Source: Pseudomonas silvicola
GTDB taxonomy: Bacteria; Pseudomonadota; Gammaproteobacteria; Pseudomonadales; Pseudomonadaceae
Length of the DNA: 64,000 bases
Assembly: GCF_026651855.1 (NCBI RefSeq)
Contig: NZ_CP093280.1
Coordinates: 2,892,001-2,956,000, forward strand
Reading direction: 5' to 3'
How positions within the stretch are numbered: position 1 is the stretch's first letter; each line of letters begins with the position of its first letter. Of the stretch, positions 9,863-24,854 are shown piece after piece. The translations under genes and the position numbers were made by a program. Below the pieces are notes generated by a model, which was not told the DNA's origin, did no database searches, and saw nothing but the letters and a program-made list of their open reading frames with translations.

Positions 9863-10612
9863 TCACAGGCGGTAGAAATCCCGCGCATTGCCCCACAGCA
9901 CCATCTGCGCGCCATCTTCTCCCAGTTCATCGTTGATCATCGCCAGGTCATCGGCCCGAAACGGCCGCGGCGCGCGCGTGGACGGCAGGTCGGTACCAAA
10001 CATCAGCGCATGGGGGTTGGCCGCGTAGAGCGCCTGCAACGCCGGCCCTACCGGAAAATCCACGCGCCCGAACCCGCACGCCTTCACCCGCACCCCGCGC
10101 TCGGCCAGGCGCAGCAGCGTGGGCAAGCCATCGCGGCTCAGGCCCAGGTGGTCGATACTGACTTCCGGCAGGCGCAGCAAGCGCGCCTCCAGCGCGTGCA
10201 GGTCACGAGAGTCGACGTACAGCTCGGCATGCCACCCCAGCAGTTCATGCACGCGCTTGGCAAAGGGTTCCAGCTTGTCCAGTTGTTCGGAACCACCGCG
10301 CTTGAGGTTGAAGCGCAGCGCGCGCACGCCATGGCGGTCCAGGTGCTGCAACTCGTCATCGGTCACCGAGGCGGGTAGCTGGGTGACGCCGACGAAGCCG
10401 GGCCCCAGGCGAGCCAGGGCGTCGAGCAGGTAGCCCTGGTCGAACACCTGGAAGGACCCGGACACCACCGCGCCGCTGCTTACGCCCAGCGGCGTGGCCT
10501 GGGCCAGGTAATCATCCACCGTATAGGTGGGCGGCAAGTAGCCGTCATTGGCGACCAGCGGGAAACGCGGGTCGATGATGTGGCAGTGAGCGTCGAATAC
10601 CTGGCCGGTCAT
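9863..10612 (-). CDS. Amidohydrolase-2 family metal-dependent hydrolase
   Basis: A 249-residue TIM-barrel hydrolase. The N-terminal FDAHCHIIDPRF holds the HxH metal-binding pair; a later His is in SIDHLGLSRDG, and a C-terminal Asp is in LMFGTDLPSTRA, as in the amidohydrolase-2 (PF04909) family of decarboxylases and lactonases. The actual substrate cannot be told. It is convergent with tusA and downstream of a small acidic protein gene in the same orientation (21 bases between them), so the two may be co-transcribed. Confidence 0.88.
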   Translation of the reverse strand: MTGQVFDAHCHIIDPRFPLVANDGYLPPTYTVDDYLAQATPLGVSSGAVVSGSFQVFDQGYLLDALARLGPGFVGVTQLPASVTDDELQHLDRHGVRALRFNLKRGGSEQLDKLEPFAKRVHELLGWHAELYVDSRDLHALEARLLRLPEVSIDHLGLSRDGLPTLLRLAERGVRVKACGFGRVDFPVGPALQALYAANPHALMFGTDLPSTRAPRPFRADDLAMINDELGEDGAQMVLWGNARDFYRL

Positions 10613-10633
10613 GGGTGCGCTCCTGTTCAGGAA

Positions 10634-10996
10634 TCAGCGGGCGATATGGCTGACGTAGGTGCCGGTGCCGTCGAGGATGTTGCGAAGGGTTTCTTCGACT
10701 TCCGGCAGGTCTACCTCGCTGCTGTCATAGTTGATCACCAGTTCCACGTCACCGTTCAATACGTCGGCATCGTCGGCGGCCAGTTCGAACGTCAGGGTCT
10801 TGTCGTCCAGGGTCACCTTGAAGTCGCGCACGTAGCAGGGCTCTTCATCGCCCAGGGTGAATTCCACGTCCTTGTCGTCGGCCAGGCGGGTAATCAGGAT
10901 CATGCCGCCCTTTTCGTCATGGCAGCACACCAGGGCCATGTTGTCTTCTTCGTCGTCGCACGGGTTGACCATCAACTGGCTGGCTTGAAATTGCAT
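10634..10996 (-). CDS. Small acidic conserved protein of unknown function
   Basis: A 120-residue, strongly acidic cytoplasmic protein. There is no signal peptide, membrane segment or obvious catalytic motif. The alternating pattern (MILITRLAD, VEFTLGDEEP, FKVTLDDKTLTFELA, VELVINYD) suggests an all-beta fold. The layout of a GGMILIT strand, a DDKTLTFEL strand and a D-x-ELVINYD strand is loosely reminiscent of Imm10-type proteins, but no toxin gene is nearby, so I do not assign that. I chose the ATG giving MQFQASQLM; four codons upstream is a GTG that is less likely. It is divergent from gdhB. Confidence 0.75.
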   Translation of the reverse strand: MQFQASQLMVNPCDDEEDNMALVCCHDEKGGMILITRLADDKDVEFTLGDEEPCYVRDFKVTLDDKTLTFELAADDADVLNGDVELVINYDSSEVDLPEVEETLRNILDGTGTYVSHIAR

Positions 10997-11335
10997 GATT
11001 ATTACCAAGGTAGGAGGGCAGGTAGCGATTCTGACACTGTTTGCCCAGAATCAGAAACTGGCGTGTGCAACGCCCTGTGTAGCTCGTACGACAACTCCCC
11101 GTTGACCGAATATGTCGCAGCCTCGCAAGTATCCAACAGGTGGCACTGGGTAAGCTGGGCAGTTGAGGGGGTGTTCCATTTTGGTGCAACGTCCAATGCG
11201 CCTTGCAGGCCACCCCCTGTTCCGGCCCCCGGCCGGAATTTCCTCCCCTGTTGCAACGGGTTGGCTATGGTTGATCCCAGCAGGGGAATACACGCGACGC
11301 TTCATTCAAAAACAAGCCCAAGCGGAGTACCACAG
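10997..11335. other. Intergenic region upstream of gdhB
   Basis: About 339 bases without a supported gene, between two divergently read genes. The gdhB side has a GGAG ribosome-binding site at 11324-11327 and a GC-rich perfect inverted repeat, TTCCGGCC-CCC-GGCCGGAA, at 11220-11238, about 100 bases upstream of the start codon. I see no good sigma-70 promoter match. Any control of the catabolic dehydrogenase would have to act here. Confidence 0.5.
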
Positions 11336-14300
11336 ATGGCGTTCTTCACCGCGGCCAGCAAAGCCGACTTCCAGCAACAACTGAAAGCGGCCCTGGCGCA
11401 GCACATCGGCGAGCAGGCACTGCCACAAGTAGCGCTGTTCGCTGATCAGTTCTTCGGCATCATCTCAATGGACGAACTCACCCAGCGCCGCCTCAGCGAC
11501 CTGGCCGGCTGTACCCTCTCGGCCTGGCGCCTGCTGGAGCGGTTCAACCACGCCCAGCCCCAGGTGCGGGTGTACAACCCCGATTACGAACGCCATGGCT
11601 GGCAGTCGACCCACACTGCCGTGGAGGTCCTGCACCACGACCTGCCGTTCCTGGTGGATTCGGTACGCACCGAACTCAACCGCCGCGGCTACAGCATTCA
11701 TACCCTGCAGACCACCGTGCTGAGCGTGCGCCGCGGCGCCGACGGCACCCTGCTGGAGGTGCTGGCGAAGGGCACCCAGGGCGAAGGCGTGCTGCAGGAA
11801 TCGCTGATGTACCTGGAGATCGACCGCTGCGCCAATGCCGCCGAGCTGAATCTGTTGGCCAAGGAACTGGAGCAGGTGCTGGTGGAGGTGCGGGTTGCCG
11901 TCGCTGATTTCGAGCCGATGAAGGCCAAGGTCCGCGAAGTGCTGGCGCTGGTGGACCAGAGTGCCTATGCCGTGGACGAGGGCGAAAAGGCTGAGGTCAA
12001 GACCTTTCTGGAATGGCTGGTGGGCAACCATTTCACCTTCCTGGGCTATGAAGAATTCGTGGTGACCGACGAGGCCGACGGCGGCCACCTGGTGTACGAC
12101 GAGAACAGCTTCCTGGGCCTGACCCGCCTGTTGCGCGCTGGCCTCACCGCCGAAGAGCTGCGCATCGAAGATTACGCCGTCAACTACCTCAATGAACCCC
12201 TGCTGCTGTCCTTCGCCAAGGCCGCGCACCCCAGCCGCGTGCACCGCCCGGCCTACCCCGACTACGTGTCGGTGCGCCAGTTGGACGCCAGCGGCAAGGT
12301 CATCAAGGAATGCCGCTTCATGGGCCTGTACACTTCGTCGGTGTATGGCGAAAGCGTGCGGCAGATCCCGTACATTCGCCGCAAGGTCGCCGAAATCGAG
12401 CACCGCTCCGGCTTCGACCCCAAGGCGCACCTGGGCAAGGAACTGGCCCAGGTAGTGGAAGTGCTGCCCCGCGACGACCTGTTCCAGACCCCGGTGGACG
12501 AACTGTTCAGCACGGTGATGTCCATCGTGCAGATCCAGGAACGCAACAAGATCCGCGTGTTCCTGCGCAAGGACCCCTACGGGCGTTTCTGCTACTGCCT
12601 GGCCTATGTGCCCCGCGACGTCTACTCCACCGAAGTGCGGCAGAAGATCCAGCAGGTATTGATGGAGCGCCTCAAGGCCAGCGACTGCGAATTCTGGACC
12701 TTCTTCTCCGAGTCGGTGCTGGCGCGGGTGCAGTTGATTCTGCGCGTCGACCCGAAAAATCGCATCGACATCGACCCCCTGCAACTGGAAAACGAAGTGG
12801 TGCAGGCCTGCCGTTCGTGGCAGGACGACTACGCCGCGCTCACCGTGGAGGCTTTTGGCGAAGCCCAGGGCACCAACGTGCTGGCTGACTTCCCCAAGGG
12901 TTTTCCCGCCGGCTACCGCGAGCGCTTCGCCGCTCACTCGGCGGTGGTCGACATGCAGCACCTGCAGACCCTCTCGGAAAAGCGCCCGCTGGTGATGAGT
13001 TTCTACCAGCCGCTGGCGCAGACCGGCAAACAGCAGTTGCACTGCAAGCTCTACCACGCCGACACGCCGCTGGCGTTGTCCGACGTGCTGCCTATCCTGG
13101 AAAACCTCGGCCTGCGGGTGCTGGGCGAATTCCCGTATCGCCTGCGCCATACCAATGGCCGCGAGTTCTGGATTCACGACTTCGCCTTCACCGCTGCCGA
13201 AGGCCTGAACCTGGATATCCAGCAGCTCAACGACACCCTGCAGGATGCCTTCGTGCACATCGTGCAGGGCGACGCCGAGAACGACGCGTTCAACCGCCTG
13301 GTGCTGACCGCCGGCCTGCCGTGGCGCGATGTGGCGCTGCTGCGTGCCTATGCCCGCTACCTCAAGCAGATCCGCCTGGGCTTTGACCTGGGCTACATCG
13401 CCAGCACCCTGAACAACCACACCGACATCGCCCGCGAGCTGACCCGGCTGTTCAAGACCCGTTTCTACCTGGCCCGCAAGCTGACCGCCGAAGACCTGGA
13501 CGACAAGCAGCAGCGCCTGGAGCAGGCGATCGTCACCGCCCTGGACGATGTGCAGGTGCTCAACGAAGACCGCATCCTGCGTCGGTACCTGGACCTGATC
13601 AAGGCCACCCTGCGCACCAACTTCTACCAGCCGGATGCCAAGGGCCACGCCAAGTCGTATTTCAGCTTCAAGTTCAACCCCAGGCTGATTCCCGAACTGC
13701 CCAAGCCCGTGCCCAAGTTCGAGATATTCGTCTACTGCCCGCGGGTGGAAGGCGTGCACCTGCGCTTCGGCAATGTTGCCCGTGGTGGCCTGCGCTGGTC
13801 GGACCGTGAGGAAGACTTCCGCACTGAAGTGCTGGGCCTGGTGAAAGCCCAGCAGGTGAAGAACTCGGTGATCGTGCCGGTGGGCGCCAAGGGCGGTTTC
13901 GTACCGCGTCGCTTGCCCCTGGGCGGCAGCCGTGACGATATCCAGAACGAGGCCATCGCCTGCTACCGCCTGTTCATTTCCGGGTTGCTGGACATTACCG
14001 ACAACCTCAAGGAGGGCGGCGTGGTACCGCCGGCCAACGTAGTGCGTCATGACGATGACGACCCCTACCTGGTGGTCGCCGCGGACAAGGGCACCGCGAC
14101 GTTCTCCGACATCGCCAACGGCATCGCCATCGACTATGGCTTCTGGTTGGGCGATGCTTTTGCTTCGGGTGGTTCGGCCGGTTACGACCACAAGAAGATG
14201 GGTATCACCGCCAAGGGTGCCTGGGTGGGGGTGCAACGCCACTTCCGCGAGCGCGGTATCAATGTGCAGCAGGACAGCATCAGCGTGATCGGCGTCGGCG

Positions 14301-16195
14301 ACATGGCGGGCGACGTGTTCGGCAACGGCCTGCTGATGAGCGACAAGCTGCAACTGGTGGCGGCGTTCAACCACCTGCACATCTTCATCGACCCCAACCC
14401 GGACCCGGCCACCAGCTTCGCTGAACGCCAGCGCCTGTTCGACCTGCCGCGCTCGGCCTGGAGCGACTACGACACGTCCATCATGTCCGAAGGCGGCGGT
14501 ATCTTCCCGCGCAGTGCCAAGAGCATTGCCATCAGCCCGCAGATGAAAGCACGCTTCGATATCCAGGCCGACAAATTGACGCCTACCGAGCTGCTGCATG
14601 CGCTGCTGAAGGCGCCGGTGGACCTGCTGTGGAACGGCGGCATTGGCACCTACGTCAAGTCCAGCAAGGAAAGCCACGCCGATGTGGGCGACAAGGCCAA
14701 CGACGCCTTGCGCGTCGATGGCAATGAGCTGCGTTGCAAGGTGGTGGGCGAGGGCGGCAACCTGGGCATGACCCAGTTGGGCCGAGTGGAGTTCGGCCTG
14801 CTGGGCGGCGCCACCAACACCGACTTCATCGACAACGCTGGCGGCGTGGACTGCTCCGACCATGAGGTCAACATCAAGATCCTGCTCAACGAAGTGGTGC
14901 AGGCTGGCGACATGACCGAGAAGCAGCGCAACGTGCTGCTGGGCAGCATGACCGATGAAGTCGGCCACCTGGTGCTGGGCAACAACTACAAGCAGACCCA
15001 GGCCCTGTCCCTGGCGGCGCGCCGTGCCTACGAGCGCATCGCCGAGTACAAGCGCCTGATGGCCGACCTCGAAAGCCGCGGCAAGCTTGACCGCGCCATC
15101 GAGTTCCTGCCCACCGAGGAGCAGTTGCTGGAGCGGGCGGCGGCCAACCAGGGCCTGACCCGCGCTGAACTGTCGGTGCTGATCTCCTACAGCAAGATCG
15201 ACCTCAAGGAAGCGTTGCTCAAGTCCCAGGTACCGGACGATGCCTACCTGACCCGCGACATGGAAACGGCGTTCCCGCCCAGCCTGGTCAACCAGTACGC
15301 CGAGTCCATGCGTCGCCACCGCCTCAAGCGCGAGATCGTCAGCACCCAGATCGCCAACGACCTGGTCAACAACATGGGCATCACCTTCGTGCAGCGCCTG
15401 AAGGAGTCCACTGGCATGAGCCCGGCCAACGTGGCCGGGGCTTACGTGATCGTGCGTGACATCTTCCACCTGCCGCACTGGTTCCGCCAGATCGAGGCGC
15501 TGGACTACCAGGTGTCCGCCGACGTGCAGCTGGCGTTGATGGATGAGCTGATGCGCCTGGGCCGCCGCGCCACGCGCTGGTTCCTGCGCAGCCGCCGCAA
15601 CGAGCAGGACGCTGGCCGCGACGTGGCCCACTTCGGGCCACATATCGCCGCGCTGGGCCTCAAGCTCGATGAGCTGCTGGAAGGGCCGACCCGCGAGCAT
15701 TGGCAGACCCGCTACCAGGGCTACGTCGAAGCCGGTGTGCCGGAGTTGCTGGCCCGCATGGTGGCGGGCACCAGCCATCTGTACACCCTGCTGCCGATCA
15801 TCGAGGCCTCGGACGTCACCGGTCACAATGCCGCCGAAGTGGCCAAGGCGTTCTTCGCCGTGGGCAGCTCGCTGGACTTGAACTGGTACCTGCAGCAGAT
15901 CAGCAGCCTGCCGGTGGAAAACAACTGGCAGGCTCTGGCCCGCGAGGCGTTCCGTGACGATATCGACTTCCAGCAGCGGGCGATCACCATTTCCGTGCTG
16001 CAGATGGCCAATGCCCCCGCGGACATGGACGAGCGCATGGTGTTGTGGCTTGAGCAGCATACGGCCATGGCGGAACGCTGGCGGGCCATGCTCGACGAGC
16101 TCAAGGCCGCAACCGGCACCGATTACGCCATGTATGCGGTGGCGAACCGGGAGTTGATGGACTTGGCCCTGAGCGGCGCTACCGTGGCTGCCTGA
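11336..16195 (+). CDS. gdhB: NAD-specific glutamate dehydrogenase, large (180-kDa class)
   Basis: A 1619-residue catabolic NAD-dependent glutamate dehydrogenase, which deaminates glutamate to 2-oxoglutarate and ammonia. The length matches Pseudomonas GdhB (about 1620). The long N-terminal part (about residues 1-700) carries ACT-like regulatory segments; the catalytic core is in the middle, with FGNVARGGLRWSDR, the lysine-bearing VGAKGGFV, PPANVVRHDDDDPYLVVAADKGTA and the dinucleotide segment around GVGDMAGDVFGNGLLMS. The C-terminal helical region is typical of this class. The frame is open far upstream, but the ATG giving MAFFTAASKADF has a GGAG site and the family length. In P. aeruginosa this class is arginine-inducible and allosterically controlled. 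Confidence 0.97.
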   Translation: MAFFTAASKADFQQQLKAALAQHIGEQALPQVALFADQFFGIISMDELTQRRLSDLAGCTLSAWRLLERFNHAQPQVRVYNPDYERHGWQSTHTAVEVLHHDLPFLVDSVRTELNRRGYSIHTLQTTVLSVRRGADGTLLEVLAKGTQGEGVLQESLMYLEIDRCANAAELNLLAKELEQVLVEVRVAVADFEPMKAKVREVLALVDQSAYAVDEGEKAEVKTFLEWLVGNHFTFLGYEEFVVTDEADGGHLVYDENSFLGLTRLLRAGLTAEELRIEDYAVNYLNEPLLLSFAKAAHPSRVHRPAYPDYVSVRQLDASGKVIKECRFMGLYTSSVYGESVRQIPYIRRKVAEIEHRSGFDPKAHLGKELAQVVEVLPRDDLFQTPVDELFSTVMSIVQIQERNKIRVFLRKDPYGRFCYCLAYVPRDVYSTEVRQKIQQVLMERLKASDCEFWTFFSESVLARVQLILRVDPKNRIDIDPLQLENEVVQACRSWQDDYAALTVEAFGEAQGTNVLADFPKGFPAGYRERFAAHSAVVDMQHLQTLSEKRPLVMSFYQPLAQTGKQQLHCKLYHADTPLALSDVLPILENLGLRVLGEFPYRLRHTNGREFWIHDFAFTAAEGLNLDIQQLNDTLQDAFVHIVQGDAENDAFNRLVLTAGLPWRDVALLRAYARYLKQIRLGFDLGYIASTLNNHTDIARELTRLFKTRFYLARKLTAEDLDDKQQRLEQAIVTALDDVQVLNEDRILRRYLDLIKATLRTNFYQPDAKGHAKSYFSFKFNPRLIPELPKPVPKFEIFVYCPRVEGVHLRFGNVARGGLRWSDREEDFRTEVLGLVKAQQVKNSVIVPVGAKGGFVPRRLPLGGSRDDIQNEAIACYRLFISGLLDITDNLKEGGVVPPANVVRHDDDDPYLVVAADKGTATFSDIANGIAIDYGFWLGDAFASGGSAGYDHKKMGITAKGAWVGVQRHFRERGINVQQDSISVIGVGDMAGDVFGNGLLMSDKLQLVAAFNHLHIFIDPNPDPATSFAERQRLFDLPRSAWSDYDTSIMSEGGGIFPRSAKSIAISPQMKARFDIQADKLTPTELLHALLKAPVDLLWNGGIGTYVKSSKESHADVGDKANDALRVDGNELRCKVVGEGGNLGMTQLGRVEFGLLGGATNTDFIDNAGGVDCSDHEVNIKILLNEVVQAGDMTEKQRNVLLGSMTDEVGHLVLGNNYKQTQALSLAARRAYERIAEYKRLMADLESRGKLDRAIEFLPTEEQLLERAAANQGLTRAELSVLISYSKIDLKEALLKSQVPDDAYLTRDMETAFPPSLVNQYAESMRRHRLKREIVSTQIANDLVNNMGITFVQRLKESTGMSPANVAGAYVIVRDIFHLPHWFRQIEALDYQVSADVQLALMDELMRLGRRATRWFLRSRRNEQDAGRDVAHFGPHIAALGLKLDELLEGPTREHWQTRYQGYVEAGVPELLARMVAGTSHLYTLLPIIEASDVTGHNAAEVAKAFFAVGSSLDLNWYLQQISSLPVENNWQALAREAFRDDIDFQQRAITISVLQMANAPADMDERMVLWLEQHTAMAERWRAMLDELKAATGTDYAMYAVANRELMDLALSGATVAA

Positions 16196-16207
16196 CGCTA
16201 CTCTGCC

Positions 16208-16235
16208 GCCGTCGCGCAGCCCGTTGCGCGACGGC
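16208..16235 (+). terminator. Hairpin after gdhB
   Basis: A perfect 11-bp inverted repeat, GCCGTCGCGCA and TGCGCGACGGC with a 6-base loop, begins 12 bases past the gdhB stop codon. No T-run follows, so it is either a weak or factor-assisted terminator or a 3'-end protector. Confidence 0.5.
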
Positions 16236-16392
16236 ATTCATGTCTGAAGGAGCTGGCAAGCAGCTCCCGCCAGTGAGCACTGCCCCCGCTGTCCACTTTC
16301 AGTGGGGCTGTTTCACTCTGTCTTTCACGTTGCCCCGGGCCTACCTTCCCCGTTACACCGAATGCACGGTGGCCAACGACGGGAACGAGATC

Positions 16393-16848
16393 ATGGAAGA
16401 TATCAAGGGCAGATCTTTTATCGGCAAACTTTTTTGCACCTCGCCGCCTTATAAAGGCGAGGTGGGGTGGTCCGATTCGATACTGCACACCGAGACGGGC
16501 TGGTTGGTCGTGGGTGAAACCGCAGAGCCGCTGCAGTTGCGTTTTCACTATATCGAATCGCCGACAGCTGATCGTCTTCATTACGAGATTCATGCCCACA
16601 ACAATGAATATTTCCCTGGCGCCAAACTGGGTCTTAGCCTGAATCATTATCTAGGGCTATACACAGTTGCTGACGTCAGAGACCACTGGAAACTCGAACC
16701 GCTGGGTGAGTGGGTCATAGGCGAGAATATTCATTTTAACCTGCGTGACAATCTCGGGCAGCGGGTGGGTATTTACCGAGACACCTACCTGAATGTCCGG
16801 GCGCCTGAAGCGGCCCAATTCAAGGCGCAAGTCATTCAGTTGCTGTAG
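16393..16848 (+). CDS. Unknown small protein, paralog 1 of a four-member local family
   Basis: A 151-residue soluble protein that I do not recognise. It shares a clear scaffold with the next three genes: M-x-x-I/L-x-G-x-SF near the N terminus, GWLV, a beta-like LRFHYIE, DRLHYEI, LGLSLNHYLGLY, a Trp-containing HWKLEPL, and RDNLGQRV. Relative to its paralogs it lacks about 25-30 residues just before the C-terminal strand (QFKAQVIQLL), as if an internal segment had been lost. No signal peptide or membrane helix. I chose the ATG giving MEDIKGRSF, which aligns with the paralogs, although the frame extends upstream. Base composition is more AT-rich than gdhB, suggesting acquisition or relaxed constraint. 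Confidence 0.75.
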   Translation: MEDIKGRSFIGKLFCTSPPYKGEVGWSDSILHTETGWLVVGETAEPLQLRFHYIESPTADRLHYEIHAHNNEYFPGAKLGLSLNHYLGLYTVADVRDHWKLEPLGEWVIGENIHFNLRDNLGQRVGIYRDTYLNVRAPEAAQFKAQVIQLL

Positions 16849-16962
16849 GTAGTTATTGATGGTCCTGAAGATTTCAGGGGTGCTAGATTGAATATGTCTC
16901 TGCATATTTGAGAGGCCGGTACAGGAAATAACGTCAGAACGTCATATGACCAGGAGGTCGAC

Positions 16963-17478
16963 ATGAATCAATTGGAAGGGAAATCTTTTGTTGCCAGTGT
17001 ATCCATTGCAACGCCGATGTTCGCGGGACCTGTTGTAGTGTCGGAGTACGACAATTTATTGGGGAGTGGCTGGTTGATGGCAGGGGAAAAGGGCGCGCTT
17101 CCCGTTTCTCTGCAGTTCGATTACCAGCAGCATGGCGAAGACCGCATCATGTATCGCATCAAGGCAGGGCCGGATGCCGGAAAACGCGCGGGTGATACAT
17201 TGGGGCTCAGCCGTAATGACTACCTGGGGCTTTATCGCGAGGCAGAGGTGACGGAAGGCTGGAAAATGGAGCTGATCGACTATAACGAGGCCGCCGGGCA
17301 GTTGAGGTTCTTCCTGCGCGATCATGAGGGGCATCGCGTCGCGGTCCCCTTGCGAGTCTGTACGCCGTATCCGAAATTCGATTCGCCGGTTCAATGCCGT
17401 CAGGAGCGCTTTCTCATCGCGGGGAAGCGGGAAGGCACCGTGCTTGAGTTTACTGCCACGATAGAAAACTTCCTGTGA
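16963..17478 (+). CDS. Unknown small protein, paralog 2
   Basis: A 171-residue soluble protein of the same unrecognised family. Shared landmarks: LEGKSFVASV, SGWLM, VSLQFDYQ, DRIMYRI, LGLSRNDYLGLY, GWKMELI, RDHEGHRV, and the C-terminal strand EFTATIEN. It has the full-length form with the insert (YPKFDSPVQCRQERFLIAG) that paralog 1 lacks. It deviates from the family at RDN-GQ, which here reads RDHEGH. The start ATG follows a very strong site, AGGAGG, 6 bases upstream. It begins 114 bases after paralog 1, probably in one operon. Confidence 0.75.
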   Translation: MNQLEGKSFVASVSIATPMFAGPVVVSEYDNLLGSGWLMAGEKGALPVSLQFDYQQHGEDRIMYRIKAGPDAGKRAGDTLGLSRNDYLGLYREAEVTEGWKMELIDYNEAAGQLRFFLRDHEGHRVAVPLRVCTPYPKFDSPVQCRQERFLIAGKREGTVLEFTATIENFL

Positions 17479-17539
17479 CGGAAAGGGCCGCCGTGGATAT
17501 TCCACGCGGTCCGCCATCCACGGGTACAAGGAGGTCGTC

Positions 17540-18082
17540 ATGGAGCAACTCAAAGGACTGTCGTTCACCGCGAACGTGTATTGCGAGACACCGGGCTACG
17601 AAGGGGTGCTGGGTTATACTTCGTCCAGGGAACCAGGGCAGAGTGGCTGGCTGGTCAGGCGTGATGGCAGTGCGGGAACACTGTTACTGCGCTTCGATTA
17701 CCTCGAGCACACGCTTGATCGAATTCACTACAACATCACAGCGGCACCGGGCGGCGACTACGGTGATGCCAGGCTCGGCATCAATGCACGAGGCTATCTG
17801 GGCTTTTATTACCTGGCCTCGGTCGCGCCATTCTGGGAAGCAGAAATACTTGAGTACGACGAGCAAGAGCGGGTGTTTTCCTTCACCTGGCGCGACAACC
17901 TTGGGCAATGCGTCTCGATCACTCAAGAAGGCCTGCCCCTCAAGCCAGCCTACCCGGGTGCCAGGCCTGCTGTCGCACAGTACCTGTGCGTGAACCGGGA
18001 GGGCGCGTGGCCGTTGAGGTTCCGCGCACAGATCGTGCAGCAACTGTGGCCGGTGGAACGCCCCACCATCAATATTCGATAA
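17540..18082 (+). CDS. Unknown small protein, paralog 3
   Basis: A 180-residue soluble member of the local family. Landmarks: LKGLSFTANVYC, SGWLV, LLRFDYLE, DRIHYNI, LGINARGYLGFY, FWEAEIL, WRDNLGQCV and FRAQIVQQ. The insert contains a YLCVN segment that recurs as FLCLN in paralog 4, which makes these two the closest pair. The start follows AGGAGG at the same spacing as paralog 2, and the gap from paralog 2 is 61 bases, so co-transcription is likely. A short unrelated tail (VERPTINIR) extends past the family end. Function unknown. Confidence 0.75.
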   Translation: MEQLKGLSFTANVYCETPGYEGVLGYTSSREPGQSGWLVRRDGSAGTLLLRFDYLEHTLDRIHYNITAAPGGDYGDARLGINARGYLGFYYLASVAPFWEAEILEYDEQERVFSFTWRDNLGQCVSITQEGLPLKPAYPGARPAVAQYLCVNREGAWPLRFRAQIVQQLWPVERPTINIR

Positions 18083-18135
18083 TGCTGCGGGGCGTGACCC
18101 CAGTCTCGCAGCTCCCTGTGTGCACTGCAGCTGAA

Positions 18136-18169
18136 GGAAAACCCCACTCATTGATGAATGGGGTTTTCC
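18136..18169. terminator. Bidirectional terminator between paralogs 3 and 4
   Basis: A perfect 11-bp stem, GGAAAACCCCA / TGGGGTTTTCC, with a 12-base loop sits between the two convergent genes. A-rich and T-rich stem bases on each side allow intrinsic termination in both directions. Confidence 0.7.
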
Positions 18170-18188
18170 ATTGATCGACAGTGGGTTT

Positions 18189-18683
18189 TCAAATGAATGT
18201 GATGTTCCGTGCGCGGAAGGTGAGCGGCACGGCATCGTCATGATTCAAGCAGAGGAACTGGGCATCATGGTGACGACCTTCCGCATCGGGCAGGTAACCA
18301 CCCAGCGGGTAATACCTGCGCATCGACACCACCTGTCCCAAATTATCTCTCCATCGAAAATTCAACGCCTGGCCTGGTTCCCATTCGCTGTTCAGAGGCT
18401 CCATTTTCCAAAAGGCCGAGACCGCGGCGATCTTGTAGAGCCCTATATAGGAGTTGGTGCTGATACCGACCCGGCTGCCCTCGAAGGTACCGCGGGCCAT
18501 GCTGATGTTGTAATGAAGTCGGTTTTCGGTGCGCTCGATATACTCGAAGTTAAACATGAGGCCGCCACTTTGGTTGGCGTCGGTGACCAGCCAGCCTTGG
18601 GTCTCATGGGTCAGTCCATAGAATTGATCATCGGTGAAGCAGTCGATGACTGCGCTGAATGAGCGGTCTGGAATATTCTTCAT
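18189..18683 (-). CDS. Unknown small protein, paralog 4 (opposite strand)
   Basis: A 164-residue soluble member of the same family, read toward the other three. Landmarks: PDRSFSAVIDC, QGWLVTD, LMFNFEYIE, NRLHYNI, VGISTNSYIGLY, FWKMEPL, RWRDNLGQVV, FLCLN and FRARNITFI. Compared with paralog 3 the N-terminal third is shorter. The ATG giving MKNIPDRSF is preceded by AGGAGG; the frame runs 25 codons further upstream without family similarity. The family has no visible catalytic triad, metal site or export signal. A beta-rich sandwich or barrel is a guess from the alternating hydrophobic pattern. Confidence 0.75.
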   Translation of the reverse strand: MKNIPDRSFSAVIDCFTDDQFYGLTHETQGWLVTDANQSGGLMFNFEYIERTENRLHYNISMARGTFEGSRVGISTNSYIGLYKIAAVSAFWKMEPLNSEWEPGQALNFRWRDNLGQVVSMRRYYPLGGYLPDAEGRHHDAQFLCLNHDDAVPLTFRARNITFI

Positions 18684-18996
18684 GGTTGCCTCCTGGCAAA
18701 AGTACTTAGCGGTGGGATCTGCATGAGGCGATTGATGCCTCAGGTGTGGCATTGCCATGGAAGATAGATCTGCTGGTTCTTTTGGTTCAGGAGGAATTGT
18801 CTCCTTGGCTTTCTATGTTGTAGTGCGATGGCAGGTCATGGCGGCTGGCAGTCGTTGCTGTGTTTTCATGTTGTTTGCCAGCAGCCATGCTTGCCGTCAC
18901 CTGATCTTCCATCCAGCACCTGATGCGGACTGCTCAAGCAGCGCGCAAAAAAAAACCGCCCACGCATGTGGACGGTTTTTTCAGTACCGGTCGGGC
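18684..18996. other. Intergenic region between paralog 4 and acnB
   Basis: About 313 bases. The left end holds the ribosome-binding site and presumably the promoter of paralog 4; the right end holds the acnB terminator. Between them the sequence is relatively AT-rich and I see no supported gene or repeat. Confidence 0.5.
18947..18982 (-). terminator. acnB terminator
   Basis: On the coding strand a hairpin built on CCGTCCAC / GTGGGCGG (one imperfect pair) is followed by a run of nine T. It lies 14 bases past the acnB stop. A shorter T-run exists on the other strand too. Confidence 0.8.
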
Positions 18997-21606
18997 TTAG
19001 GCCTGAACCACCGGAATGTTCGCGTTGGCAGCTGCCTCGCGGAATTCGGCGATCTGGTCGAAGCTCAGGTAGCGGTAAACGTCGGCAGCCATGCTGTCGA
19101 TGTTCTTCGCGTACTCCATGTACTCCTCGACGGTTGGCAGCTTGCCCAGGATCGAGGCAACGGCGGCCAGTTCGGCGGAGGCCAGGAACACGTTGGCACC
19201 ATCGCCCAGACGGTTCGGGAAGTTACGGGTGGAGGTCGAGACCACGGTGCTGTTCGGCTCCACGCGTGCCTGGTTGCCCATGCACAGCGAGCAGCCTGGC
19301 ATTTCCATGCGCGCGCCAGCCTTGCCGTAGATGCCGTAGTAGCCTTCCTCGGTCAGCTGGTGAGCGTCCATCTTGGTCGGCGGCGACAGCCACAGGCGGG
19401 TTGGCAGTTGGCCTTTGACCTGGTCCAGCAGTTTGCCGGCGGCGCGGAAGTGACCGATGTTGGTCATGCACGAACCGATGAACACTTCGTCGATCTTCTG
19501 GCCTTGAACGGTGGACAGCAGGCGCGCGTCGTCCGGGTCGTTCGGGGCGCAGAGGACGGGCTCCTTGACGTCGGCCAGGTCGATTTCGATGACCTCGGCG
19601 TATTCGGCATCGGCGTCGGCCGACAGCAGCTCAGGGTTGGCCAGCCAGGCTTCCATGGCCTGTGCGCGACGTTCCATGGTGCGGGCATCGCCGTAGCCTT
19701 CGCTGATCATCCAGCGCAGCAGGGTGATGTTCGACTTCAGGTACTCGGCGATGGCCTTTTCCGGCAGCTTGATGGTGCAACCGGCGGCGGAACGCTCGGC
19801 CGAGGCGTCGGACAGTTCGAATGCCTGTTCAACGGTGAGCTCGTCCAGGCCTTCGATTTCCAGGATACGACCCGAGAAGGCGTTGATCTTGCCTTTCTTC
19901 TCGACGGTCAGCAGGCCTTTCTGGATGCCGTAGTAAGGGATGGCATGTACCAGGTCACGCAGGGTGATGCCCGGTTGCAGTTTGCCCTTGAAGCGCACCA
20001 GTACCGACTCCGGCATGTCCAGCGGCATGACGCCGGTGGCAGCGGCGAAGGCGACCAGGCCGGAACCGGCCGGGAACGAGATGCCGATCGGGAAGCGGGT
20101 GTGCGAGTCGCCGCCGGTGCCGACGGTGTCAGGCAGCAGCATGCGGTTCAGCCAGCTGTGGATGATGCCGTCGCCTGGGCGCAGGGACACGCCGCCACGG
20201 GTGCGGATGAAGTCCGGCAGGGTGTGGTGGGTGACCACGTCGATCGGCTTCGGATAGGCGGCGGTGTGGCAGAACGACTGCATGACCAGGTCGGCGGAGA
20301 AGCCCAGGCAGGCCAGGTCTTTCAGCTCGTCGCGGGTCATCGGGCCGGTGGTGTCCTGGGAACCCACGGTGGTCATCTTCGGTTCGCAGTAGGTGCCAGG
20401 GCGCACGCCCTTGCCTTCCGGCAGGCCGCAGGCCTTGCCGACCATCTTCTGCGCCAGGGTGAAACCCTTGCCGGTGTCGACCGGGGCTTCCGGCAGCTTG
20501 AACAGGTCAGTCGGGCCCAGGCCCAGCTCTGCGCGGGCTTTTTCGGTCAGGCCACGGCCGACGATCAGCGGAATACGGCCGCCAGCGCGGACTTCGTCCA
20601 GCAGCACGGGGGTTTTCAGTTCGAAGGTGGTGATGACTTCGTCGCTGTCATGCTTGCAGACCTTGCCAGCGTGCGGGTACAGGTCGATCACGTCGCCCAT
20701 GTTGATGTTCGAGACATCGAATTCGATCGGCAGGGCGCCGGCGTCTTCCATGGTGTTGTAGAAGATCGGGGCGATCTTTGAGCCGAAGCAGAAACCACCG
20801 GCGCGCTTGTTCGGCACGTAAGGGATATCGTCGCCGAAGAACCACAGCACCGAGTTGGTCGCCGATTTACGCGACGAACCGGTACCGACCACGTCACCGA
20901 CGTAGGCGATCGGGAAGCCTTGGCCACGCATTTCTTCGATCTGCTTCATCGGGCCGATGGAGCCTTGCACGTCCGGCACGATACCGTCGCGGGCCATTTT
21001 CAGCATGGCCAGGGCGTGCAGCGGGATGTCCGGGCGCGACCAGGCGTCAGGCGCCGGGGACAGGTCGTCGGTGTTGGTTTCGCCGGTCACCTTGAACACG
21101 CGCAGGCTGATCTTGTCGGCCAGGGTAGGGCGCTTCTTGAACCACTCGCCGTCAGCCCAGGACTCGATCACGGCCTTGGCGTGGGTGTTGCCGTTCTTGG
21201 CTTTTTCGGCCACGTCGTGGAAGGCGTCGAACATCAACAGGGTGTGCTTGAGCTGCTCGGCCGCGACCGGGGCCAGCTCGGCGCTGTCCAGCAGCTCGAC
21301 CATGGTGGCGATGTTGTAGCCGCCCTGCATGGTGCCCAGCAGCTCAACGGCGCGCTTCTTGTCGATCAGCGGGGAGGTGGCTTCGCCTTTGGCGATGGCG
21401 GAAAGGAAACCGGCCTTCACGTAGGCTGCTTCGTCCACGCCTGGCGGCACGCGGTTGGTGATCAGGTCGACGAGGAAGGCTTCTTCGCCAGCGGGAGGAT
21501 TCTTCAGCAGCTCGACCAGGCCGGCTGTCTGTTCGGCGTTAAGCGGCTGGGGCACGATACCCTGGGCGGCACGCTCTTCGATGTGTTTGCGGTAGGCTTC
21601 AAGCAC
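18997..21606 (-). CDS. acnB: Bifunctional aconitate hydratase 2 / 2-methylisocitrate dehydratase (AcnB)
   Basis: An 869-residue AcnB-type aconitase, the main vegetative TCA aconitase in gamma-proteobacteria, which also hydrates 2-methyl-cis-aconitate. Order of domains: N-terminal HEAT-like region ([13 protein letters not shown]), swivel domain ([17 protein letters not shown]), then the catalytic iron-sulfur core with [29 protein letters not shown] and [12 protein letters not shown], which supply the cluster cysteines. I chose the GTG at 21606, which has AGGG 8 bases upstream and gives the usual length; an in-frame ATG five codons earlier coincides with that site. It has a long structured leader upstream. 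Confidence 0.97.
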
Positions 21607-22003
21607 AGTTATTACCCTCATCAGTGGTCCCTGTCCGGGACGCTCATCCAGTCATTCCCGCGCCCATGCGCTGCACGGCTTTCCCGCCGTCGAGGCCGGG
21701 GCTGCAGGAATTCCTTGTAGAAGCTGCTTTCAAAGTTTTACGCCTCCAGAACGGGGAGCTGATGAGGGCTGGCGCCAGGTATCTTTGCCTGAAAATACCT
21801 GCGCCAACGCCGTTCTGTCGGATAACTGTGCTCGTGACGCTTTGAAAACAGCTTCTAGCGGACATTGGTGCCTAAAAAGGCAGCGTGATTCTACGGCAAA
21901 AAAACAAGAAAGGTAAGTTAAGCCCTACCACTTCAGGGGTGATCATCCTTAGACAAAGGGCTAACATGGCCGCCTGTCTTACTTTTCAAAGCGTTGCCAA
22001 GCC
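21607..22003. other. Divergent region between acnB and the DUF1289 gene
   Basis: About 397 bases without a supported gene. It contains a 140-bp nested palindrome (listed separately) and, nearer the DUF1289 gene, an AT-richer stretch with ATTCTACGGC and AAGAAAGGTAAGTTAAGC but no clear promoter match. Both genes start from this region. Confidence 0.5.
21718..21857. repeat. 140-bp triple-nested inverted repeat upstream of acnB
   Basis: Three concentric inverted repeats share one centre. The outer arms at 21718-21735 and 21840-21857 are 18 bp with one mismatch (TAGAAGCTG...CAAAG). The middle arms at 21747-21754 and 21810-21817 (CAGAACGG / CCGTTCTG) are perfect. The inner arms at 21771-21782 and 21795-21805 (GGCGC-C-AGGTAT / ATACCTGCGCC) have one bulge. 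Transcribed, this would form a long interrupted hairpin in or near the acnB leader. It could be a miniature mobile palindrome or a structured leader RNA. Confidence 0.6.
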
Positions 22004-22474
22004 ATGTCCAACCAGTCCATCAAGACCCCCTGTGTAGGCCTCTGTTCCACGGTTTACGGGGACCTTGTGTGCCGCGGCTGCAAGCGCTTCCACCACGAGG
22101 TCATCCACTGGAACGGTTACGACGACGAGGCCAAGCGCGCGGTGTGGCTGCGCCTGGAACAGTTGCTGGTGCAGGTGATGGTGGCCAAGCTGGAAGTCTT
22201 CGACAAGGACAAGCTGCGCCAACAGCTGGAACAACGCAAGATCCGTTTCGTGGCGCACCAGTCCGAATACTGCTGGGCCTACCAGTTGATCGCCCGTGGC
22301 GCGCGGGTCATCAACCAGCTGGAGGCGTATGGCATGGCTTTGCTGCCGGAATTCCGCGACTGGGAGCTACCGGAATTGCGCGACGCCATTGATCGGGAAT
22401 TTTTCCTGCTGTCCGAGGCGCATTACGAGCGCTACATCGCACCGGGGTTTCTCCAGGATACGTTTGCTGGCTGA
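22004..22474 (+). CDS. DUF1289 family protein
   Basis: A 156-residue protein with an N-terminal DUF1289 module: TPCVGLCSTVYGDLVCRGCKRFHHEVIHW, four closely spaced cysteines followed by a His/Trp segment, which look suited to a metal or Fe-S centre. After it comes a helical region of about 100 residues with a LEVFDKDKLRQQLEQR stretch. Family function is not established. The ATG giving MSNQSIKTP sits right where the Cys module begins. It is divergent from acnB and followed by a REP-type palindrome. Confidence 0.88.
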   Translation: MSNQSIKTPCVGLCSTVYGDLVCRGCKRFHHEVIHWNGYDDEAKRAVWLRLEQLLVQVMVAKLEVFDKDKLRQQLEQRKIRFVAHQSEYCWAYQLIARGARVINQLEAYGMALLPEFRDWELPELRDAIDREFFLLSEAHYERYIAPGFLQDTFAG

Positions 22475-22489
22475 ATCCTGCAGGATGGC

Positions 22490-22586
22490 TACTGGCCTCA
22501 TCGCGAGCAAGCTGTGCTCCCACCGTGTTCACCTTGATTAAGTGTGAACGCTGTGGGAGCACAGCTTGCTCGCGACGAGGCCGGTA
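22490..22586. repeat. REP-type palindrome (REPIN-like)
   Basis: A 97-bp near-perfect inverted repeat: 34-base arms at 22490-22523 and 22553-22586 differ at only two positions. They contain the REP-like core TCGCGAGCAAGCTGTGCTCC, and an inner short stem GTTCAC / GTGAAC encloses the loop. It lies between two convergent genes, the usual place for these dispersed extragenic palindromes of Pseudomonas, which are mobilised by RAYT transposases encoded elsewhere. Confidence 0.85.
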
Positions 22587-22597
22587 GATACACCGCC

Positions 22598-23458
22598 TCA
22601 CCCCCGCGCCAACTCCTCAAGGTGCGCGATGATCTCGTCGGTCTTGAGCACCAGCACGTCACTCTCCAGCGTGTCGAGCACTACTTCGGCGGTGTTGCCG
22701 ATCAGCGCGCCCGCCACCCCGGTGCGCGCCACCGTGCCGATCACCGTCACGGCGGCCTTGAGTTTCTGCGCGGTAAATGGAATCAGCACATCCGCCGGCC
22801 CCTCGGCGATGTGCAGGTGCGCATGGTCGATATCGAATTCGGTCTGGAACGCCAGGCATTGTTCCCGATAACGCGCTTCGATGGTTTCGGAACGCTGAAA
22901 TGTGGGGTCTGGCGCCGACAGCATGGGGGAGGGGTGGGCGGCGATCACATGCAGGTCGCCCTTGGCCAGGCGGGCGATGTCGAAACCGTGCTCGATAATC
23001 GACGCATGCAGGTGCCGGTGCTCGCCGTCAGCATTGCCCACGTCCACCGCCGCCAGGATCACCCCGTGGCTCCAGGGCCGCTCGCTCTTGACCATCAGTA
23101 CCGCGCACGGGCATTGGCGCAGCAGCTTCCAGTCGGTGGGGGTCAGCAGAAAGCGTTTCAGCGCGCTTTCGTGAACGTGCTGCTTGATCACCAGGCCGCA
23201 GCCTTCGGCTTGCTGCACCTTGATGATGGTCTTTTCCAGGCTGCCTTCCCAGGCCTGCTCGGCGCTGGCACTGAAGCCGTTGTCGTGAAGCTGGGTCTTG
23301 AGCAGGCTCAGCAGGGCGCTATGGTCCTGGTGGTGGTCGCACATCAACAGGTGCAGGTGGGCCTGGGTCACACCGGCAATCAACTTCGCGCGGGTCAGCG
23401 CCTGGCTGTGGGCGTGCCCGGGGTCCAGCACCACCAGAAGGCTGCGGATCGCTTGCAT
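22598..23458 (-). CDS. Universal stress protein with two UspA domains
   Basis: A 286-residue tandem UspA protein. The first domain (about 1-145) begins SLLVVLDPGHAHSQAL and ends with LRQCPCAVLMVK; the second (about 150-286) begins GVILAAVDVGNADG and ends with the nucleotide-binding-type segment VIGTVARTGVAGALIGNTAEVVLD followed by DVLVLK. The GxxG-x9-G(S/T/N) pattern in the second domain suggests ATP binding there; the first domain lacks it. Start ATG giving MQAIRSLL. Members are induced by starvation and oxygen limitation and act in the cytoplasm. It is convergent with the DUF1289 gene. Confidence 0.93.
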   Translation of the reverse strand: MQAIRSLLVVLDPGHAHSQALTRAKLIAGVTQAHLHLLMCDHHQDHSALLSLLKTQLHDNGFSASAEQAWEGSLEKTIIKVQQAEGCGLVIKQHVHESALKRFLLTPTDWKLLRQCPCAVLMVKSERPWSHGVILAAVDVGNADGEHRHLHASIIEHGFDIARLAKGDLHVIAAHPSPMLSAPDPTFQRSETIEARYREQCLAFQTEFDIDHAHLHIAEGPADVLIPFTAQKLKAAVTVIGTVARTGVAGALIGNTAEVVLDTLESDVLVLKTDEIIAHLEELARG

Positions 23459-23600
23459 GACGGGTCTCCTGCGAGGTAGGCATGCCACTACTATAGACAG
23501 CCGTCAGTCCGCCGCCCTGTCCTGTATCAAGCATAGCGGCTGGCGCTTGGCCGTGGCGTCCGTATAATCGCCGGCTTTTGCGCCCCTTGAGGAGTCGAGC

Positions 23601-24203
23601 ATGCTGTCTGAAATCCATGAGTTCCTCGGTTGCAGGACGCCGCAGGCCTGGGTCGACGCGGCCCTGGCCGACCAGGAAACCATGCTCGTGGACCACAAGA
23701 ACTGCGAGTTCAAGGCCGCCAGCACGGCATTGAGCCTGATCGCCAAATACTGCACGCACGCCGATCTGATCAACATGATGTCGCGTCTGGCCCGCGAGGA
23801 GCTGGTGCACCACGAGCAGGTCATCCGCTTGATGAAAAAGCGCAAGATCGAGCTGCGTCCACTGTCGGCTGGCCGCTATGCGTCGGGCCTGCGCAAAGTG
23901 GTGCGCAACCATGAGCCGGTGAAGCTGGTGGACACCCTGGTGGTGGGCGCCTTCATCGAAGCGCGCAGTTGCGAACGTTTCGAGGCCCTGGTGCCGCACC
24001 TGGACGAAGAACTGGGGGCGTTCTACCACGGGCTGCTCAAGAGCGAGGCGCGGCACTACCAGGGTTACCTGAAGCTGGCGCATCAATATGGCGAGGCCGA
24101 GGATATTGCCCGCACCGTGGAGAAGGTGCGGGCGGTGGAAGCCGACCTGATCCTCAGCCCTGACGCGGAATTCCGCTTTCACAGCGGCGTGCCCGCCGCC
24201 TGA
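23601..24203 (+). CDS. miaE: tRNA-(ms2io6A)-hydroxylase MiaE
   Basis: A 200-residue non-heme di-iron monooxygenase that hydroxylates the isopentenyl group of ms2i6A37 in tRNA. The ferritin-like helical bundle shows the iron ligands in DHKNCEFKAAS, AREELVHHEQV, FIEARSCERFEAL and LKSEARHYQGY. Length is normal for MiaE. The ATG is preceded by TTGAGGAGTCGAGC. It is divergent from the stress protein. The requirement for O2 fits a role linking tRNA modification to aeration. Confidence 0.95.
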   Translation: MLSEIHEFLGCRTPQAWVDAALADQETMLVDHKNCEFKAASTALSLIAKYCTHADLINMMSRLAREELVHHEQVIRLMKKRKIELRPLSAGRYASGLRKVVRNHEPVKLVDTLVVGAFIEARSCERFEALVPHLDEELGAFYHGLLKSEARHYQGYLKLAHQYGEAEDIARTVEKVRAVEADLILSPDAEFRFHSGVPAA

Positions 24204-24211
24204 TACCCCCC

Positions 24212-24266
24212 CCGAACCCTGTGGGACCGGGCGAAGCTCGGGAAGGCCGCACCACAGGGTCACTGA
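24212..24266. repeat. REP-like imperfect palindrome after miaE
   Basis: ACCCTGTGG on the left and CCACAGGGT on the right bracket a GC-rich centre with ACCGGGCGAAGCTCGGGAAGG. It has the size and position of a Pseudomonas REP sequence, and may also act as the miaE 3' hairpin. The related core GCTTCGCCCGGTCCCAC recurs after the efflux operon near 29.2 kb. Confidence 0.55.
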
Positions 24267-24316
24267 ATTTCCCCCGCCCCTGAACGTCTGAATAATAAGC
24301 AAGCTAACAATTTAAT

Positions 24317-24369
24317 TTGACATTAGCTGCCTAGGCAGTAACATCTTGTATAAATTACTGCCTAGGCAG
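24317..24369 (+). promoter_or_regulatory. Efflux operon promoter with two MarR-type operators
   Basis: Two identical 12-bp perfect palindromes, CTGCCTAGGCAG, lie at 24327-24338 and 24358-24369, centres 31 bp apart (three helical turns). A TTGACA at 24317-24322 and TAACAT at 24339-24344 (16-bp spacer) would place the first operator exactly in the promoter spacer. The second lies just upstream of the regulator's start codon. This is the layout expected for autorepression by a MarR dimer. Confidence 0.8.
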
Positions 24370-24380
24370 GCTTTTGCACG

Positions 24381-24854
24381 ATGAAACATTTCACCCCGGA
24401 AAACTTTCGCACTTGCACCATCGGCTTGCTGCTGGGCCGTGCGTCGTCCGTCAAGGACCGCATCCTGGATACGCACCTGGTCCCCGAAGGGGTCACTGCC
24501 GCGCAGTTCAAGGTGTTGATCATCATCGAGCAGTTCGATGTCGACCGGCCGGCCGAGTTGTGCCGCTACCTGTCGCTGGACAGCGGCTCGATGACGCGCA
24601 TGCTCGACCGACTGGAACAAAAAGGCTTCATCAGCCGTCGACCTTGTGCCGATGATCGCCGTCAGGTACGGGTCACCCTCACACCGGCCGGCCTGGCACT
24701 GGCGGGCAAGTTGCCGGTGGTGGGCGCCGCGGCCATGAACGAGCTGGTAGGCGTGCTCGCCCCGGATGAACTGGAAAGCCTGGAACGAATCTTAACCAAA
24801 GTATTGCTGGCGGCAGGGGACACCCTCACCGCCTTGCGGGTAGGTGCTAAATGA
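24381..24854 (+). CDS. MarR family transcriptional regulator
   Basis: A 157-residue winged-helix repressor. The DNA-binding region covers about residues 40-105, with VTAAQFKVLIIIEQF, LSLDSGSMTRMLDRLEQKGFI and the wing RRPCADDRRQVRVTLTPAGLAL, all typical of MarR. It is the first gene of an efflux operon, overlapping the next gene by ATGA, and sits directly behind two palindromic operators, so it most likely represses its own operon until a phenolic or drug ligand binds. An EmrR/MprA-like role is inferred from the neighbours; it is not proof of orthology. Confidence 0.93.
   Translation: MKHFTPENFRTCTIGLLLGRASSVKDRILDTHLVPEGVTAAQFKVLIIIEQFDVDRPAELCRYLSLDSGSMTRMLDRLEQKGFISRRPCADDRRQVRVTLTPAGLALAGKLPVVGAAAMNELVGVLAPDELESLERILTKVLLAAGDTLTALRVGAK

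Follow-up and report, generated by a model that had tools for sequence, protein, structure and literature searches.

The four genes at 16393-18683 of the window, the whole 64,000-nucleotide stretch of Pseudomonas silvicola DNA analyzed here, encode members of one diverged protein family that sits in a few fixed slots of Pseudomonas genomes, turns over between related genomes, and is under purifying selection. This genomic behavior and a predicted beta-trefoil fold are well supported by computation. As to target and role, we infer, tentatively, a non-exported, slot-bound repertoire of ligand-binding beta-trefoils that would harm grazers upon ingestion or lysis of the cell. The cluster, with gdhB and acnB on either side, comprises the following features.

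10646..16195, + strand: left flank gdhB (ORF as called, heuristic start; name from the sequence-only reading that preceded this analysis)
16393..16848, + strand: gene A, family member of 151 residues, the shortest of A-D near the C-terminus (ORF list, alignment)
16952..16957, + strand: AGGAGG ribosome-binding site of gene B (sequence)
16963..17478, + strand: gene B, family member of 171 residues (ORF list, alignment)
17529..17534, + strand: AGGAGG ribosome-binding site of gene C (sequence)
17540..18082, + strand: gene C, family member of 180 residues (ORF list, alignment)
18136..18169, no strand assigned: probable bidirectional terminator, a hairpin between the convergent genes C and D whose arms hold an A-run and a T-run (fold z-score)
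18189..18683, - strand: gene D, family member of 164 residues, predicted beta-trefoil (ORF list, alignment, model)
18689..18694, - strand: AGGAGG ribosome-binding site of gene D (sequence)
18997..21621, - strand: right flank acnB (name from the same reading)

The ORFs of all four genes were confirmed; that of gene A permits an upstream start at 16240, and the family domain begins at 16393. The AGGAGG motif claimed for three of the four genes is found in front of B, C, and D, in each case 5 bases from the start, and inspection of the sequence showed the hexamer to be absent from the corresponding site 5' of gene A. A bidirectional terminator in the middle of the cluster had also been proposed, and the hairpin at 18136-18169 agrees with it (fold z-score -3.6; 0 of 200 shuffles equally stable); the terminator scan misses this hairpin because it requires a T-run 3' of the stem. 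The longest gdhB-acnB stretch outside the four genes is 313 bp. No tRNA was found in 9000-25000 by a tRNA scan, an Rfam scan gave no lead, and, within the window, neither the tRNA site nor the integrase at the edges that would mark an integrase-borne island was found.

The sequence-only reading had described the four proteins, of 151-180 residues, as an unrecognized paralogous family, and had named a strong Pfam match or a failure to align as grounds for abandoning this view; neither was found. Proteins A-D share 30-42% pairwise identity over aligned columns, their six local alignment scores all lie 21-44 s.d. above 200 shuffles, and 29 columns of the alignment are invariant, with SF, GWL, Y-x-I, Y-x-G-x-Y, and RD among them. 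Pfam returned no match for the four window proteins, and NCBIfam a single one (E 0.12). For 57 members, the matches in both libraries were scattered, down to E 0.0026 in Pfam and to E 0.0076 in NCBIfam, with at most two members per matched family, and sequences in the PDB gave no convincing match. A single-protein pattern scan of genome contigs matched 11 stretches, none of which encodes a relative. The family is thus without a name in Pfam, NCBIfam, PHROGs, and PADLOC-DB. No description of it was found in the literature searched, mostly titles and the beginnings of abstracts, and the available passages of PMC6093933 do not state the product of its pp4398 gene. AidA/PixA and aegerolysin-like toxins, which we considered as candidates, were rejected on finding no supporting profile in Pfam.

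Structure prediction, which had been suggested as a check, was carried out for D and for a distant member with 21% identity to D, and both models resemble beta-trefoils. The AlphaFold model of D (pLDDT 85, pTM 0.82) has strands that fall into three groups of four, as in a twelve-strand beta-trefoil; DSSP assigns 13 strands, of which 151-153 and 155-163 were counted as one. Among the 50 of 858 Foldseek matches listed for D, the confident PDB matches are mostly beta-trefoils, among them Symfoil, IL-1beta, FGF, lysenin, Kunitz-type BbCI, the SSA lectin, macrocypin, and BinAB, all of which we take to be trefoils; the list also includes low-probability non-trefoil chains. The E-values among the matches listed are weak for both models; for D the best is 1.7e-3, and no match reaches 1e-3. 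The model of the distant member (pLDDT 75) has fewer strands than that of D and one poorly predicted stretch; its matches, among the 50 of 232 listed, include fascin, IL-33, and the ryanodine-receptor N-terminal domain. Query TM scores among the matches listed reach 0.57 for D and 0.52 for the distant member, and macrocypin and Kunitz-type inhibitors occur among the structural matches of one or the other. Internal three-fold sequence symmetry was not detected, as hhalign of the three unit profiles scored no better than reversed controls; many trefoils also lack such symmetry. No Pfam profile of trefoil lectins, whether ricin B or of another type, or of mycocypin or Kunitz inhibitors matched the family. 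Overall, a predicted beta-trefoil fold shared by the family is well supported by computation.

The family alignment, likewise proposed earlier, showed variable loops and conserved strands (mean entropy 2.99 and 2.39, respectively; p 0.0002). The hydrophobic core is kept and consists in D of F9, W31, L32, F46, G81, Y83, W92, and F156; together with the variable loops, this core suggests a scaffold for binding and not an enzyme. Several polar positions are fairly conserved among the 89 collected members (N77 in 70, D113 in 70, R112 in 68, S75 in 66, and K93 in 66), which leaves room for an active site. An export signal or strongly hydrophobic N-terminal segment was found in 0 of 89 members by a crude hydropathy test that depends on heuristic start calls, in line with the earlier claim, and a cytosolic location is predicted. 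The high expression expected from the ribosome-binding sites gains indirect support: at least five of the six bases of AGGAGG are present in 44 of 89 members compared with 62 of 408 other called genes, figures that again depend on heuristic start calls.

Mapping of presence and absence across Pseudomonas, also suggested at the outset, showed that the family extends beyond the window cluster: 71 of 398 sampled genomes of the genus carry it, with 1-7 matches per genome, and it is rare outside the genus. Removal of 11 matches from L073-L076, which are repeats of G095, G007, G071, and G885, reduced 100 family matches to 89. Of these, 78 sit between four named pairs of flank genes, which are housekeeping genes common to many species, and seven more adjoin slot II, 2.6 to about 9 kb outside its named flanks; the 25 members labeled II, by locus, comprise 18 between the flanks and seven outside. 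Slot labels change nine times on the tree compared with a mean of 49.4 when shuffled, a clustering to which near-copies contribute, and none of slots II, III, and I forms a single clade; the loci behind the tree and slot counts were hand-chosen from genomes with matches and are not a random sample. Among 50 flank-bounded loci, 18 leave less than 400 bp outside the family. No other gene was called in 31 of the 50, a weak figure, less firm than the 18, given that the gene finder, which scores codon usage, passes only 19 of the 89 family genes. Slot sequence not accounted for amounts to 5.7 kb in L033 and 1.6 kb in L077.

Comparison of the window with four related family-bearing genomes showed that DNA homology stops at 16174-16218, at or near the stop codon of gdhB, and resumes at 18946-19002, at the 3' end of acnB. 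With G791, one close relative, it stops at 16195 and resumes at 18946; DNA identity outside is 93-97%, and inside the cassette C alone can be aligned. The dS values are 1.38 for C, 0.32 for gdhB, and 0.10 for acnB; weaker codon bias could inflate the dS of family genes. G043 has an empty slot (144 bp). Such strongly different contents between near-identical flanks, with homology breaking at the cassette edges, suggest exchange by recombination. Plasmid or phage cargo was considered and rejected, since the product of gene D had no match in plasmids and one relative had none among 50,697 phage records (one query each).

The cluster had been read as an acquisition followed by local duplication. 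Its higher AT content stands, with a GC of 0.49-0.59 across the cluster and 0.61-0.69 within gdhB and acnB in 500-base windows. Low GC is a family-wide trait, however (mean 0.562 over 89 members and 0.626 over their loci), and is therefore no evidence of recent import, an explanation that we rejected. Recent local duplication is not supported either: no pair among A-D exceeds 42% identity, and in the tree C has its partner in the same place of G791 (74% identity, support 100/99) and D pairs weakly with another G791 gene (38% identity, support 95/47), with no resolved partner for A or B. The duplications are thus old, wherever they occurred. Of 14 pairs, hand-picked among close ones and in some cases sharing a member, 12 had a finite dS, and their dN/dS values were 0.10-0.28; the family dS fails to exceed every flank dS in 4 of the 14. 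The members are real genes under purifying selection, and strong positive selection over whole genes was rejected on these values.

We propose that the four genes occupy one slot of a repertoire, kept by Pseudomonas, of beta-trefoil proteins that are small and not exported. Sets of genes are replaced, gained, and lost, most likely as the conserved flanks undergo homologous recombination, with the result that related species hold different members in the same slot. Each member may bind its own glycan or protein, as lectins and trefoil protease inhibitors do; the ligand-binding, lectin-like function raised by the sequence-only reading is compatible with the predicted fold. The protein would build up in the cytosol and act once the cell is eaten or lysed, its putative targets being grazers (protozoa, nematodes, or insects), as with fungal cytoplasmic beta-trefoil lectins. 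In the available passages of PMC3355094, PMC6238071, and PMC9104457, fungal cytoplasmic proteins of the trefoil-lectin kind act in defense. That the family is a bacterial counterpart of the mushroom armory of cytoplasmic trefoil proteins, a hypervariable, slot-bound, lectin- or inhibitor-like repertoire refreshed by core-flank recombination and harming grazers, is an extension that we regard as doubtful.

Several other roles would fit part of these data. Parts of delivered toxins, in which trefoil binding subunits partner an enzyme encoded elsewhere, are suggested by an endonuclease/exonuclease/phosphatase superfamily gene that adjoins members in L044, L093, and L142, and by BinAB among the structural matches listed for D; toxins with trefoil domains, such as BinAB, do exist. 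However, that enzyme gene occurs in 2 of 19 slot III loci plus L142 and in none of the other called genes identified elsewhere, and the members lack an export signal, which makes this role very improbable. A physiological role, as small-molecule or stress-linked binding proteins diversified under relaxed constraint and without a conflict function, would agree with the housekeeping flanks and with family dN/dS values above those of most flank genes (mostly 0.00-0.07; yciC-like 0.07-0.27). Presence in about a sixth of the sampled genomes at variable copy number and near-complete replacement between close relatives would be unusual for housekeeping, and we judge this role unlikely.

Two further explanations place the family in conflicts of the living cell. 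As orphan immunity proteins, each member would neutralize a toxin injected by competitor bacteria and the slots would be immunity arrays; the slots, with tandem arrays of small and diverged cytosolic proteins that differ between species, recall the orphan immunity arrays of other genera, as far as the available passages describe them. Against this, the recurrent and selected neighbors identified include no recognized gene for a toxin, Rhs, VgrG, or secretion, the 18 loci mentioned above have less than 400 bp free of the family, and the sole immunity-family match in Pfam is Imm27, for one member (E 0.49); orphan immunity is accordingly quite unlikely. Alternatively, the members could be cytosolic inhibitors of phage or mobile-element factors (proteases, nucleases, or takeover proteins), their diversity reflecting an arms race with phages. 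They are small, without an export signal, patchy, and turning over in slots, like the cargo of the P. aeruginosa core defense hotspots in the available text of PMC10250203. But among the 57 members, PADLOC-DB gave one match (E 0.046) and PHROGs unconvincing matches (best E 0.0026), no defense gene was recognized among the neighbors identified, and the one member compared with phage records had no match, so that we rate this explanation, too, as unlikely.

Although Pseudomonas is heavily studied, about a sixth of its sampled genomes (71 of 398) carry a family without a name in the libraries searched. That a few fixed chromosomal addresses are occupied mainly by one diversifying family suggests a way for a bacterium to maintain a variable repertoire in which no mobile elements are evident. 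If the members bind glycans or proteases, they would supply new lectins or inhibitors and a bacterial defense against predators, a field in which not many protein factors are known.

The slots resemble type VI orphan immunity arrays, in the available passages on these, in holding tandem, diverged, small cytosolic proteins, and differ in having no toxin or secretion gene recognized among the neighbors identified. Beta-trefoil protease inhibitors (macrocypins, cocaprins, and Kunitz-STI) have the same predicted fold as the family, and macrocypin and Kunitz-type inhibitors appear among its structural matches, but the family has no profile match to such inhibitors and no inhibitory loop was identified; the known ones come from fungi and plants. 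Fungal cytoplasmic beta-trefoil lectins, such as CNL and, by structure, SSA, are likewise small and have the fold predicted for the family. For D, SSA (2x2s) ranks with the best matches listed, at TM scores of 0.57/0.61, yet the identity in the structural alignment is 10%, and the Pseudomonas family is bacterial, with carbohydrate binding that is putative. Finally, the core defense hotspots of P. aeruginosa, in the available text of PMC10250203, also hold variable cargo between fixed core genes, whereas the recognized cargo of the slots described here is mainly one protein family, held between four pairs of flank genes.

The window carries four ORFs between gdhB and acnB, names that we take over from the sequence-only reading, together with a hairpin:

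Gene cluster in the window
16393-16848, + strand, gene A
16963-17478, + strand, gene B
17540-18082, + strand, gene C
18136-18169, hairpin at the convergence point of C and D (z -3.6)
18189-18683, - strand, gene D

Alignment of the four products gave 29 invariant columns, with pairwise identities of 30-42% and alignment scores 21-44 s.d. over those of shuffled sequences, which bears out the earlier observation that the ORFs are homologous; the family is larger, and its genomic behaviour stranger, than that reading saw. The GC content of the cluster is below that of the flanks. AGGAGG lies 5 bases 5' of the start codon in B, C, and D and was not found at that spacing before the start codon of A. 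The hairpin was absent from the terminator scan output.

No Pfam match was found for the A-D proteins, and only one NCBIfam model matched them (E 0.12). When 57 relatives were scanned singly against Pfam, PHROGs, PADLOC-DB, and NCBIfam, weak scattered matches were obtained (best E 0.0026, 0.0026, 0.046, and 0.0076, respectively), with at most two members matching any one library family. The family profile retrieved no convincing relative from the PDB sequences, where the top match, a tail fibre, had E 0.064, and a description of the family was not found in the titles, the starts of abstracts, and the passages of one paper in the open-access literature. An AlphaFold model of D with 15 aligned sequences (pLDDT 85, pTM 0.82) showed strands in three units: 9-17, 20-26, 31-35, and 42-51; 56-62, 71-74, 79-83, and 92-96; and 107-112, 118-122, 142-146, and 151-163 (151-153 and 155-163 taken as one). 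No three-fold sequence symmetry between the units was detectable above control. Among the best 50 of 858 PDB matches, the confident ones were mostly beta-trefoils, including Symfoil, FGF, IL-1beta (TM 0.56/0.59), lysenin, BASI, BbCI, SSA lectin (TM 0.57/0.61), macrocypin, and BinAB; others, among them photosystem, spike, and avidin chains, appeared at low probability. The E-values of these structural matches were modest (best 1.7e-3). Viral matches included fascin-like and FGF proteins, and the model of a distant slot II member, of lower confidence (75; 21 residues <50), matched fascin, the ryanodine-receptor N-terminal domain, IL-33, and, weakly, Kunitz inhibitors. Apart from the low-probability chains, we take the matches named (Symfoil, FGF, SSA lectin, fascin, and so on) to be trefoils.

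With the first profile, built from four sequences, 26 of 199 same-genus genomes matched, and a 57-sequence profile matched 71 of 398, with one to seven matches per matching genome. The genome that holds the window is counted in both figures; besides the four clustered genes it has one further, distant member at C1:20012 (E 8.6e-12). Matches were found in 2 of 148 genomes in the family-level sample (the window's own and one of another genus) and in the window's own genome only in the class-level (1/369) and phylum-level (1/398) samples; weak relatives may be missed because the larger searches score few candidates per genome. Named carriers were Pseudomonas rubra, P. donghuensis HYS, P. inefficax, and 'gamma proteobacterium L18' (4 relatives in 27 matched stretches). 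D had no match in 72,556 plasmid records, and one relative had none in 50,697 phage records.

Searching 58 loci and the window yielded 89 members once four repeated loci were taken out, and 78 of them are bounded by one of four pairs of flank genes:

Fixed slots of the family
Slot I, gdhB/acnB, 15 members
Slot II, piuC/decarboxylase, 18 members
Slot III, hrpB/yciC-like, 28 members
Slot IV, ycgR/bkdR, 17 members

The flank products are an Fe2+-dependent dioxygenase, a pyridoxal-dependent decarboxylase, HrpB helicase, a UPF0259 protein, a PilZ protein, and an Lrp-type regulator; piuC and bkdR are presumably the right short names. Seven further members are close to slot II beyond its named flanks, and the family also occurs at places beyond the four slots (four members neither in nor near them). 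On a maximum-likelihood tree of the 89 members, the place label changed nine times, against a mean of 49.4 after shuffling (as low in 0 of 200 shuffles); slot IV formed one clade (support 100/99), and slots III, II, and I, each taken by itself, required three, five, and five changes. Less than 400 bp besides family genes was present in 16/19 slot III loci and 2/5 slot I loci; slots II and IV hold more free sequence (0/14 and 0/12), some of it occupied by other genes: a Sel1-repeat gene at the slot II locus L066, comparable genes being called at further loci, and, in slot IV, an MFS transporter gene. Since the gene finder misses most family genes, it may overlook other slot genes. Distant members of about 200-280 residues were seen some 0.9-2 kb 5' of acnB in other genomes (L141, L150, L152), which places the family on both sides of acnB. 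L136:4975-6069, adjoining a transporter gene, encodes a 364-residue protein that begins with a family domain and has two more short matches, possibly a double-domain member. A PF03372 endonuclease/exonuclease/phosphatase superfamily gene lies beside members between hrpB and yciC-like in three loci (L044:9132-10205, L142:5506-6600, L093:8580-9677); the L044 product has a hydrophobic N-terminus.

Slot content turns over between close genomes. Window and genome G791 share 93% DNA identity on the gdhB side and 97% on the acnB side; homology ends at 16195 and restarts at 18946, and inside the slot gene C alone is alignable (74%). In G885, G838, and G145, the flanks are 82-93% identical to the window in DNA, with no DNA alignment inside the slot. 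For C against its partner, dS was 1.38; gdhB gave 0.32 and acnB 0.10. Across 14 chosen close pairs, family dS exceeded that of every tested flank gene in ten, two of them saturated, and did not in four; weaker codon bias could partly explain the raised values. Family dN/dS was 0.10-0.28 (12 pairs with finite dS), against 0.00-0.07 for flank genes except yciC-like (0.07-0.27). Slot I is empty in G043, with 144 bp between gdhB and acnB. We infer cassette exchange via homologous recombination in the flanks as the simplest account of this turnover. When acnB was located in the 29 other genomes that matched it best, gdhB was at most about 1.5 kb away in two, both without the family, and was not seen nearby in 27, where one acnB locus is cut by a contig end; the pairing is thus limited to part of the genus. 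In a second family-free genome, besides G043, other DNA fills the gdhB/acnB gap (L125:580-1480); by eye it seems to contain many inverted repeats and simple repeats. The window's genome has one gdhB, judged from the C-terminal part, and a second acnB copy (G000:C1:4452214-4452789; 97% identical to the window's over 192 residues), possibly from a mixed assembly (8.65 Mb, 8% contamination) or a real duplication.

Strand positions were more conserved than loops (mean entropy 2.39 vs 2.99, p 0.0002), and the top conserved positions hold hydrophobic residues or glycine (F9, W31, L32, F46, I60, G81, Y83, W92, G116, F156). At some polar positions (S75, N77, K93, R112, D113) 66-70 of the 89 rows agree, so the members might have an active site; the pattern sits better with variable binding loops carried on a scaffold than with an enzyme. 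By the threshold used, which one neighbouring control protein passed, none of the 89 members has an N-terminal segment of strong hydrophobicity. Close AGGAGG matches were commoner in the family (44/89) than among other called genes (62/408), with starts assigned by rule of thumb.

The fold and slot behaviour of the family are well supported by computation; its proposed function is a reasoned guess, to which we give somewhat less than even chances. The carrier P. donghuensis HYS is virulent to C. elegans, and since the abstracts name other factors, it is no evidence for the family. By analogy, the members may be binding proteins that act once the cell is eaten or lysed. The analogy is with fungi, in which, according to the passages cited, proteins of the cytoplasm, beta-trefoil lectins among them, act against predators such as nematodes (PMC3355094, PMC6238071), and protease inhibitors with the trefoil fold also occur (PMC9104457).
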